From: Streptococcus anginosus
GTDB lineage: Bacteria; Bacillota; Bacilli; Lactobacillales; Streptococcaceae
DNA length: 64,000 nucleotides
Assembly (NCBI RefSeq): GCF_001697145.1
Contig: NZ_CP012719.1
Location: 344,501-408,500, forward strand
Direction of reading: 5' to 3'
A model generated the notes under the pieces. It was given only the letters and a program-made list of their open reading frames with translations. It ran no database searches and had not been told where the DNA came from. Below, piece after piece: positions 3,273-11,598 of the stretch. The number at the start of each line of letters is the position of its first letter. Position 1 is the stretch's first letter. The translations under genes were made by a program, and so were the position numbers.

Positions 3273-4343
3273 TTATAATTCCTTTCGTGTAGTATAGTAT
3301 GTTGGACATAGAAGCGGTAAGATTTGATACGGATGTTCATTGTCAATAATTTGAATAATACCCGTACCTTTACCGATTGGTATGACAATACCTTTAGGGT
3401 CTAAGTCAGGAAATAAAAACTGAGTTGTGTTTCGGTTAATATTTCCAATCTGGATTAGTACATTTGCTTGTTCTCGAACAGAGACAGGGATTGCAGTATG
3501 ATCAAATCGTTGACTGACCAAGACTAAATGAATCCTAGTTGCTCGACCTAGTAAAGCAATTTGAGATAAGAGGGCAAAGAATGAATCTTTGATAGCCTTA
3601 TTTGTTCCTTCAGAAATAGCCAAAACTTCATCAATCACAATCGTCAAATGTTTAAACAGTGTATTGGGTTTATCGTATAAAATAGCTTGACGTTGATGAA
3701 TCTTTTCTAAACATTTACTCAAATATGAGTTAATTTCAGAAACAAAGTCGCTCTTGGAGTGATTGGGATCGGGGTGAATAACAGGAAGTCCGTGTTCCCT
3801 TGCCCAACGGCTAGGAGTATCAAACTTTGGATCTACAATAACTAAATCAGACCGTTCTTTTAGTTGTCTAAGTAAATAAGTCAACATATAACTTTTTCCT
3901 GACCCGCTATTTCCTGCAATAAGGATAGATGTGACCGCATTATAATTGAGTGATAGATTATCCATAAGAGGAATTTTCTTTTCTTTATGGGAAGCGGCAT
4001 GACTGTCTAAGTCAGTAATGACCAATCGTTTGGATATTCCTTTTTTCCAAGGGAAGAAGAGAGCACGTTGGGTGCTGATTGATTTATTGTTTAGGGGGAT
4101 AAAATAGGCGGAGTTTTGTTTTAACAAAGTATATTGAGGATAAAGTGCAGCGCTAGCAATTGAAAAAATTTTTTGATATAAGTCATCATCAACTACATAA
4201 CCCGCAGGAAAGCGGGGAAGAAAGATGAAACCTTCTTCCCTAATCTCGCAACTGAAGCTGTTGTCGTAAGTCGTCTCTCCTTGGGTAGAAGCTCCCAATG
4301 CCATGTTTAAACATCGTTCGAGATATTCTTGAAGCACAGCCAT
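3273..4343 (-). CDS. FtsK/SpoIIIE-family DNA-pumping ATPase, TcpA-type coupling protein
   Basis: A 356-residue P-loop ATPase. Walker A is GNSGSGKS (144-151), followed by VIVDPKFDTPSRW, a typical FtsK_SpoIIIE segment, and Walker B is LTIVIDEV (Asp238-Glu239). The later stretch GRATRIHLVLVSQRFD matches the sensor motif of FtsK/TcpA proteins. In Tn916-like ICEs and streptococcal IMEs, proteins of this class feed the relaxase-bound DNA strand to the mating channel. This one lacks obvious N-terminal transmembrane helices, so it may rely on the adjacent membrane protein (2730-3269) for anchoring. It sits one base after the upstream unknown gene at 4345-4662. FtsK-family membership is firm; the coupling role follows from the neighbouring relaxase. 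Confidence 0.88.
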   Translation of the reverse strand: MAVLQEYLERCLNMALGASTQGETTYDNSFSCEIREEGFIFLPRFPAGYVVDDDLYQKIFSIASAALYPQYTLLKQNSAYFIPLNNKSISTQRALFFPWKKGISKRLVITDLDSHAASHKEKKIPLMDNLSLNYNAVTSILIAGNSGSGKSYMLTYLLRQLKERSDLVIVDPKFDTPSRWAREHGLPVIHPDPNHSKSDFVSEINSYLSKCLEKIHQRQAILYDKPNTLFKHLTIVIDEVLAISEGTNKAIKDSFFALLSQIALLGRATRIHLVLVSQRFDHTAIPVSVREQANVLIQIGNINRNTTQFLFPDLDPKGIVIPIGKGTGIIQIIDNEHPYQILPLLCPTYYTTRKEL

Positions 4344-9894: not shown

Positions 9895-10227
9895 ATGACA
9901 GAATTTGACTTACAAATGTTTATTGCTAAGCGGATCCGCCATTTGCGGCTGAAAAAAGGGATGACTCAAGAGGAACTAGAAGAAAAAGCAGACCTTGGAA
10001 CAAACTATGCTTATAAACTAGAGCATCTCAATACTAATATCAAGGTTAACACACTTCAAAAGGTTATCAAGGCACTTGATACTGATCTTGCGACCTTTTT
10101 TGACTTTAACGTGAGTGATGAAAATCCTGATATTATTGAGTTAATCACAAACCTTAAAAGGTTAACTAAAGAACAGCAAGAAGCAGTTATTCAGGCTATG
10201 AGCCTCTTGATGAAACAGATGAAATAG
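9895..10227 (+). CDS. XRE/Cro-CI family transcriptional regulator
   Basis: A 110-residue repressor-type protein. The HTH_3 domain spans about residues 8-66: IAKRIRHLRLKKGMTQEELE followed by EKADLGTNYAYKLEHLNTNI is the two-helix motif, and TLQKVIKALDTDLATFF closes the domain. The tail ends in a helix (TKEQQEAVIQAMSLLMKQMK) likely to dimerise. It is transcribed away from the LPXTG operon with 149 bases between the starts, and a dyad overlaps the opposing promoter. A plausible own promoter is TTACAA (9849-9854) with TATGAT (9872-9877). Such single regulators next to surface genes usually repress the divergent operon; that is inference here. Confidence 0.85.
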   Translation: MTEFDLQMFIAKRIRHLRLKKGMTQEELEEKADLGTNYAYKLEHLNTNIKVNTLQKVIKALDTDLATFFDFNVSDENPDIIELITNLKRLTKEQQEAVIQAMSLLMKQMK

Positions 10228-10249
10228 AGTTCATTGCTTTATATACAAT

Positions 10250-10288
10250 AAAGAATGGGGAATTCTTGTGCCGAATTCCCCATTCTTT
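10250..10288 (+). terminator. Perfect 16-bp hairpin after the XRE gene
   Basis: Arms 10250-10265 (AAAGAATGGGGAATTC) and 10273-10288 are exact reverse complements around a seven-base loop. It starts 23 bases after the XRE stop. There is no long T run beyond the stem on either strand, only the TTCTTT inside the arm, so termination strength is uncertain. Confidence 0.6.
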
Positions 10289-10405
10289 CATGAAAAGCCA
10301 CCTATATTATAGAAGATACAAGCGGCTTGTACATATTTAACTAAGTTTTCGTTTTTTTTTTTTGCTCCCTTCTAACACCTTGTGCAAACTTCACAAGCAA
10401 ATTAT

Positions 10406-10780
10406 TTGACAAGTGAATTTGAATTAGGTATATATAATATAGATTAAGAATTTAATTCTTAATACTTAATCTATTTTTTCAAAAATAAAATCTTTGAGTC
10501 TGAGCGAAGCTCATATGCTTCAGGCTGTACAGCCTGAAGCCGCGAAATTTAGAGCTAGAACCACTAAATTTAAAAAAGTATACATTTAGTATTAAGAATT
10601 AAATGTTCGCTTAGCAAAGCTAAGCGAAAGGGGTTAGTCTGTACAGACTAACCCCTAAATAGAAGAAAAGAATTTTCTTCCGCTTTGGCTTAAGGGGAAT
10701 TTTATTCATTTAACAGCTAGATTAATTTGAGAATAATTTAAAAGACTTCGCTTTAAAAATTTAATCGAAGTCTTTTAATT
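10406..10780 (+). ncRNA. Promoter followed by a chain of perfect hairpins: candidate structured RNA or single-strand origin
   Basis: No coding frame of note exists here. A promoter-like TTGACA (10406-10411) has TATATA 17 bases and TATAAT 21 bases downstream. Then follow: an outer pair 10450-10469 with 10585-10604 (18 of 20 bases complementary); inside it GAGC-GAA-GCTC (10502-10512), a perfect 24-base palindrome (10517-10540, half GCTTCAGGCTGT) and AAATTTAG/CTAAATTT (10545-10571). After it come CGCTTAGC-AAA-GCTAAGCG (10608-10626), a perfect 26-base palindrome (10630-10655, half GGGGTTAGTCTGT) and a terminator-like TTAAAAGACTTCG stem (about 10738-10778). Both palindromes share the centre CTGTACAG. 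The order promoter, folded body, terminator suggests a non-coding RNA. A plasmid-type single-strand origin is the main alternative. No known family is recognised. Confidence 0.45.
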
Positions 10781-10961
10781 ATATAAAAACTAATTTTTTA
10801 ATCATCAAAAAGTTGCCCTATTCAGAAATAGTTTTTACATTATGACTAAAGATGCTTTAAAATTGTATTCATCCAGTTGGATTTTGCAGGCAACAACCGT
10901 AGCATGTCAACTTGCTTGTTTTAATAAATAATGCTAGTATATGAGAAAAGAGGAAAACTCT

Positions 10962-11219
10962 ATGCAAATTAATCTTGAAAACTTGATTACGATTACAGAA
11001 GCCAACTGAAATTTTTCTAAAGTAGCTTGTATACTTGATAGGAAGGGTACAGTGGTCATCTTGAAGAATAATAAACCTAAATATGTATTAGTAGATTATA
11101 ATAACTTGATAAAGGTTGAGCAAGAAGAAACAGCAGTAGCAGAACGGTCAACAATTGATGAAGTTGCTAATTCTATTTTGTCACGTCATCTAGACGCTTT
11201 TAAGGAATTGGCTAAATGA
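10962..11219 (+). pseudogene. Phd/YefM-type antitoxin gene broken by a nonsense codon
   Basis: The frame from ATG 10962 reads MQINLENLITITEAN, stop (TGA 11007-11009), then NFSKVACILDRKGTVVILKN and on to a normal TGA at 11217-11219, 86 codons in all. ITEAN-NFSKV and KPKYVLVDYNNLIKV are hallmark Phd/YefM segments; the broken codon is usually Arg or Gln, and CGA to TGA would explain it. The end overlaps the start of a Doc-type toxin remnant by ATGA, the typical phd-doc coupling. Full-length antitoxin cannot be made without readthrough. Confidence 0.75.
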
Positions 11220-11349
11220 AACGATTAACAGTAAACCAAATTGTCGCCTTGCATAGTCAGTTGATAACTACTACAGGAGGCTTAGGCTAGGTGTAGCTTC
11301 TCTTGAATTATCGTATGCTGATATTTTAAAGTTTGTCCAAAACTGTTAA
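11216..11349 (+). pseudogene. Doc-type (Fic-fold) toxin remnant with a large internal deletion
   Basis: ATG 11216 overlaps the antitoxin stop. The first frame gives MKRLTVNQIVALHSQLITTT plus GGLG and stops at 11290. This is the N terminus of death-on-curing toxins (normally about 120-130 residues). In another frame the next bases give RLGVASLELSYADILKFVQN and stop at 11349, which matches the Doc C terminus. The whole centre, including the Fic-type HxFx(D/N) catalytic motif, is missing. An internal deletion with frame change has therefore inactivated the toxin, consistent with the broken antitoxin beside it. Confidence 0.72.
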
Positions 11350-11377: not shown

Positions 11378-11598
11378 CAATTAAAATTTTATGCTATGTA
11401 GCATGTGACAAAACCTTGATTTAAAGCCTTTTTTAAACTTTATTTTTATTTAATTTAACGTCAGATTGACTATAATCGGCATCATTGAAGGTCTTCATTG
11501 ATTGAAGGCTTTTTGTTTATTGTTAAGCATTGTTGTGTAAAAAAAGCTAATCGCATCTGACCAGCTTATGAAAAACAAGTAGGATATCCAAATTTTAC

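Follow-up and report, generated by a model that had tools for sequence, protein, structure and literature searches.

The stretch of DNA analyzed here, referred to as the window, comprises 64,000 nucleotides (64 kb) of Streptococcus anginosus (contig NZ_CP012719.1, positions 344,501 to 408,500, forward strand), and all coordinates are positions in this window. An element of ~11.75 kb is integrated in a tRNA-Thr gene and contains the intergenic hairpin block that is the subject of this analysis. The element is bounded by a 13-bp att repeat, CTATAATCGGCAT, the left copy of which, 282 bp to the left of the window, is where the tRNA-Thr gene ends, while the right copy lies at 11470–11482 on the + strand; a 22-bp repeat, TTGGTCAACTTTTGGTCAACCA, is found inside both element ends. 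The gene content includes an integrase (PF00589), a DUF771 protein, a Rep, an FtsK-like ATPase, an LPXTG protein, and an HTH regulator. The Rep (1360–2565, − strand) is a 401-residue protein with CRESS-type motifs, the PF02407 score of which (23.7 bits) falls short of the cut-off of 26. The FtsK-like ATPase (3273–4343, − strand), a possible coupling protein, has a strong PHROG match and a Pfam match below the cut-off, and the HTH regulator is encoded at 9895–10227 on the + strand. With an integrase, att repeats at a tRNA gene, an HUH Rep, and a coupling-type ATPase, the element has the composition of an integrative mobilizable element (IME) with a CRESS-type Rep. Near its right end, a gene remnant with an in-frame stop (10962–11219, + strand) appears by eye to be Phd-antitoxin-like; Pfam returned no match for the intact 3′ piece of this remnant. 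Across 10962–11349, the antitoxin-like frame with its in-frame stop is followed by broken toxin-like frames, the pair being Phd/Doc-like by eye.

The HHCH, YLNK, and GxxGxGKS-type motifs of the Rep, which represent the HUH, YxxK, and Walker motifs familiar from proteins of this type, are mostly conserved among 11 aligned sequences. The meaning of these three motifs for CRESS-type Reps follows PMC6668415 and general background. At E ≤1e-20 the Rep is found in 15 of the 284 genomes of the genus, the window's own included, with 15 loci in the 14 other genomes, and it is 52–57% identical to its nearest relatives; an alignment-based search found 10 loci in genome contigs, all from Streptococcus, and no match in viral contigs. 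An origin-like hairpin with TTAGTATTAC in its loop (2661–2692, + strand), located upstream of the Rep gene, is the predicted double-strand origin and is adjoined by TGTC-type repeats at 2696–2708 on the − strand (TGAGACAAAGACA on the + strand). Loops of the TAGTATTAC type occur in CRESS-DNA virus origins, and CRESS-type Reps nick within TAGTATTAC. Upstream of the Rep gene, on the strand opposite Rep, the related loci carry GTAATACT (14 of 15) or GTAACACT (1 of 15) with adjoining TGTC repeats, and the origin-like sequence is enclosed by a perfect stem of ≥9 bp in the window's own element and in 11 of the 15 related loci. The origin hairpin and TGTC repeats are inverted relative to Rep in the own element, whereas a single orientation is seen in all 15 related loci; an inverted origin module would switch the displaced strand. 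A TAGTATTAC-type loop beside a CRESS-type Rep was thus observed in a series of streptococcal integrated elements, comprising the own element and the 15 related loci.

No open reading frame of at least 40 residues is present within 10228–10933, in agreement with the gene-free stretch of the original prediction. The hairpin block itself (10439–10680) contains six perfect stems of 8–14 bp, and a 16-bp hairpin just 3′ of the HTH gene (10250–10288), terminator-like in the − strand listing, forms a boundary outside it. From left to right, the block is composed of an AT-rich hairpin with a 10-bp outer stem (10439–10474) that contains a perfect inverted repeat of 10 bp (10443–10463); a 5-bp TGAGC-GAA-GCTCA hairpin (10501–10513); a perfect 24-bp palindrome with a 12-bp stem and zero loop (10517–10540); an 8-bp hairpin with an 11-nt loop (10545–10571); a 10-bp hairpin with an AAA loop (10606–10628); a perfect 28-bp palindrome with a 14-bp stem and zero loop (10629–10656); and an 8-bp hairpin with a 3-nt loop (10662–10680). 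The long-range pairing around three hairpins that had been proposed was also recovered: a left arm at 10450–10486, which is an alternative to the AT-rich hairpin, and a right arm at 10568–10604 are 81% complementary and enclose three hairpins in the DNA fold. Both palindromes are centered on CTGTACAG, which occurs in 15 copies in the 2.0-Mb genome, the two in the block lying 114 bp apart. The original prediction had the 24-bp palindrome, the common center, and the AAA-loop hairpin right, but the second palindrome measures 28 bp rather than 26 and the AAA-loop stem 10 bp rather than 8. The proposed promoter is doubtful (10406–10438, + strand): TTGACA is present at 10406–10411, but it is followed by TATATA at a spacing of 17 nt (10429–10434) and by TATAAT only at 21 nt (10433–10438), and the pair is not listed by a promoter scan whose rule requires T at position 6. 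The proposed terminator-like stem exists as an inverted repeat at 10738–10778 with 19-nt arms that are 89% complementary, but its T-run is weak and it is absent from a terminator scan, the permitted loop length of which it exceeds.

The claim that exact pairing in this region exceeds chance was borne out. When 10406–10780 was dinucleotide-shuffled 1,000 times, perfect stems of ≥8 bp numbered 0.3 on average and 3 at most, against the six observed, and the RNA fold z was −9.2 on the + strand (10438–10790) and −11.5 on the − strand (10430–10790). Of 255 scan windows covering the 64 kb (+ strand, 10 shuffles each), the block gave the lowest fold z, followed by the Rep origin region. The block also ranked first in perfect stems per 250 bp, with 4 versus 3 for the runner-up, among 119 sequences (600,779 bases) that were chosen for relatedness rather than as a random sample, the window's own duplicates and overlapping Rep loci being excluded. 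When 2,062 scan windows from the 64 kb, the own element, and relatives were compared, two fell below the block, one in locus L058 (z of −9.1) and one in locus L027 (z of −8.6). Both were rejected as relatives of the block, since the strong fold of L058 is that of the RatA and rli28 RNAs and the high score of L027 is due to a single 31-bp hairpin. The latter (L027:2270–2335) is perfect, has a 4-nt loop, and is intergenic in another genome of the genus. The hairpin structure of the block is real; its function is a lead.

Searches for relatives of the block covered sequence, structure, and gene neighborhood. Rfam, which the original prediction had proposed to search, gave no credible match in the block at gathering or relaxed thresholds. 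No BLAST match to the block was obtained at 1e-5 among 72,556 plasmid records or among phage records; at an E value of 10, 15 plasmid and 76 phage records matched, always with pieces shorter than 80% of the query. In genome collections that may omit records very close to the window's genome, a DNA search at 1e-5 matched that genome alone among 197, and a search at 0.01 matched 45 of 284 genomes, own included, the others with pieces of 19–81 nt (best E 6.5e-5). A 144-nt covariance model, built from one sequence and run with strict filters, reached E ≤1 in 9 of 284 genomes, with 3.5e-41 for the own genome and 0.12 or worse for the others. Exact palindrome patterns had zero occurrences in genome contigs (26 bases) and in viral contigs (22 bases). 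Among the 15 Rep-related loci, some stretches of which stop at contig ends, none contains a similar block, and such stems number at most two per 250 bp. The HTH regulator has matches in 159 of 284 genomes, and the block is absent from 29 loci of its relatives by fold scan of one strand and by short-word BLAST; viral contigs yielded two distant loci of HTH relatives, 29% identical. The Phd-like piece has matches in 31 of 284 genomes, and these loci show no counterpart of the block, their similarity starting at ~10912 at the earliest. The statement that no known family fits therefore stands across the Rfam, plasmid, phage, and genus-wide sequence and structure-model searches, and the collection of homologues that had also been proposed came to nothing, as neither the sequence search nor the structure model yielded any across the 284 genomes of the genus. 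A retron, a group II intron, and a CRISPR tracrRNA were considered and dropped by eye, with Rfam as the only search bearing on them.

The second-densest stem cluster of the 119-sequence set, L084:1459–1614, proved to be a separate conserved element rather than a second copy of the same design, and it had entered the set through a 23-nt match that is at chance level over 284 genomes. It is composed of three hairpins with closing arms, has a DNA fold z of −10.5, and in L084, the one locus where gene context was read, is flanked by genes that we take to be yhbY and yqeH. At E <1e-50, the element matches 67 of the 284 Streptococcus genomes, the window's genome not among them, with matches 87–98% identical to L084 (L084's own genome excluded) and only a partial match in G184. 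In 22 of the 67 sequences, chosen for spread and with kinship ignored, 4 of 65 predicted pairs are changed on both sides with pairing kept. It has no Rfam match at thresholds and nothing credible below them, and yqeH is unmentioned among the matches listed in a literature search on yqeH and structured RNA. A further locus (G115:C1:1496228–1496296, L223) contains only the two ends of this element, as would result from loss of the middle hairpins. The L084 element is a candidate unannotated structured RNA and is better supported as such than the hairpin block.

For the block, the original prediction had put forward a large non-coding RNA, a single-strand origin, or sites for a dimeric protein. 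The reading that we tentatively favor, at somewhat less than even confidence, is a single-strand origin (sso) of no known sequence class. In its favor, the element has a CRESS-type Rep gene and a hairpin resembling an origin, and it may form single-stranded DNA by rolling circle; the block, as is characteristic of an sso, is non-coding and forms several stem-loops in a single-stranded DNA fold. The predicted rolling-circle Rep would nick the strand carrying TAGTATTAC, here the + strand, and therefore it is the + strand that would be displaced and become single-stranded. The block would then fold on the displaced strand and prime complementary-strand synthesis, with host RNA polymerase or a primosome presumably starting on the folded DNA. 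Along the + strand of the circle, the block would lie ~7.9 kb after the nick, att a further ~0.9 kb on, and the nick again after another ~3.0 kb, such that copying from the block would reach att only after circle closure. The block folds about equally on both strands and under DNA parameters, which, together with its perfect Watson-Crick stems, is expected if DNA pairing matters. The DNA fold z ranges from −7.7 to −10.6 for two overlapping ~200-nt pieces of the block and from −3.5 to −5.9 for the two published sso stretches that the comparison covered. An sso works in one orientation only, and because the block folds well on both strands, folding does not tell which strand is used. TAGCGT, the ssoA-type hexamer, is absent from both strands of 10300–10900, and the plasmid search at 1e-5 showed no similarity to the sequence classes ssoA, ssoU, ssoT, ssoW, and ssoL; for these reasons the block is filed in none of the known sso classes. 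Against the sso reading, none of the 15 Rep-related loci has a similar block, a distance of 7.9 kb separates the block from the presumed nick, the antitoxin-like gene adjoining it is broken, and present-day excision, replication, and transfer of the element are putative.

A somewhat unlikely alternative is that the block encodes a structured non-coding RNA of ~340 nt, transcribed rightward from near 10441 to the stem at 10738–10778. The strong + strand RNA fold, the TTGACA upstream, and the terminator-like stem downstream are consistent with such a gene, and the two zero-loop palindromes, having the same self-complementary center, could kiss as RNA loops. However, the second promoter hexamer and the T-run are both weak, neither signal is listed by the scans, and the − strand folds as strongly as the + strand. 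The counted stems are Watson-Crick perfect and G-U-free by the definition of the count, and G-U pairs make up only 6 of 119 in the whole + strand RNA fold. The lack of an Rfam match also argues against this interpretation, as does the lack of a homologue by sequence or structure model, and with no homologue found there is no covariation to support it.

That the block is without present function is a little less likely still: its palindromes may have been perfected by mutation, through template switching in replication, or the block may be a decaying insert. Recent mutation would leave perfect stems, conservation was not found in genomes, plasmids, phages, or with the structure model, and the adjoining antitoxin-like and toxin-like reading frames are broken. 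Yet six separate stems and long arms within ~240 bp are much for mutation alone, and no empty site, a locus lacking the block, was found, similarity to other loci starting only at ~10912. An interspersed repeat or MITE was rejected because the block is single-copy in its own genome at E ≤1 apart from short pieces.

It is improbable that the CTGTACAG palindromes are bound by a dimeric protein of the element or host, for example in partition or regulation; the two dyads do share an 8-bp center with only 15 copies in the genome, and a perfectly symmetric site on double-stranded DNA would not depend on a single-stranded form, but CTGTACAG is absent from 13 of the 15 related loci and present once each in the other two, and the other hairpins and long arms are left unexplained. 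The neighboring HTH family has a different upstream dyad, ACYTTNNAARGT, of which the block holds one poor match only, and for this reason the HTH regulator is unlikely to be the ligand of the palindromes. Dyads like ACYTTNNAARGT were found in 28 of 30 upstream regions (own HTH gene and 29 relatives), 23 of them 74–96 nt before the gene, using a loose pattern chosen after viewing the own site and with no shuffle control, some of the relatives being nearly identical. The ACYTTNNAARGT dyad upstream of 9895 and of the related HTH genes (L011–L039) has the appearance of the operator for this family of regulators.

The single-strand origin reading can be carried further, to a composite model that we regard as a long shot. 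In this model, the block would be the first of a new sso class that doubles as a single-stranded promoter and is built on two kissing-capable CTGTACAG hairpins, in a CRESS-Rep element whose double-strand origin is inverted, keeping att single-stranded up to circle closure. If the block works as an sso, it would provide a compact, testable part for second-strand synthesis after transfer of an element whose Rep is virus-like (CRESS), and hairpin density could reveal such origins that sequence similarity misses; otherwise, it serves as a warning that strong exact folding alone does not equal function.

The element as a whole resembles known systems. It has in common with the CRESS-Rep integrated plasmids described in PMC6668415 an integrase, att repeats at a tRNA gene, an HUH Rep with a helicase-type P-loop, and an FtsK-like protein, and its overall build is like that of the streptococcal IMEs with Rep-like relaxases presented in PMC5357655. 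It differs from both in that its Rep is only 52–57% identical to its nearest relatives and in that the hairpin block is found in the own element alone. The Frpo and ssi promoters are folded single-stranded DNA that can serve RNA polymerase (PMC11541004); the left arm of the block has a weak promoter-like match, TTGAAA-16-AAGAAT, but unlike those promoters the block is outside the leading region. This promoter-like sequence (10482–10455, − strand) matches at only 9 of 12 bases, with a count at chance level (14 found versus 8.8 ± 3.3 expected).

A putative lagging-strand origin has also been proposed in IMESag-rpsI, the relaxase of which belongs to a MobV-type family. As described in PMC5090054, this origin resides in a streptococcal integrative mobilizable element, as is proposed for the block, but it is of the ssoA type and positioned just downstream of the relaxase gene, whereas the block is far from Rep and without the ssoA hexamer. 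According to PMC5703833, an sso need not occupy a fixed place with respect to rep. In ICEBs1, an sso of three stem-loops is functional, sso sequences vary widely, and structure can outweigh sequence (PMC4595007). The ICEBs1 sso is downstream of the nick, and its authors suggest that att is thereby single-stranded until the circle closes, which would be favorable (PMC4595007). The relative place of the block is as that of the ICEBs1 sso given the inverted origin and would not be so if the origin had the orientation seen in the 15 related loci; as one case, this may be coincidence. Compared with ICEBs1 sso1 and the pTA1060, pTA1040, and pBAA1 origins as given in PMC4595007, the block has exact stems of greater length, two of them loopless, and the plasmid search found no sequence similarity; like these origins, the block is non-coding and forms several stem-loops within ~200 nt, and like ICEBs1 sso1 it belongs to an element predicted to pass through single-stranded DNA and is positioned downstream of the presumed nick and before att.
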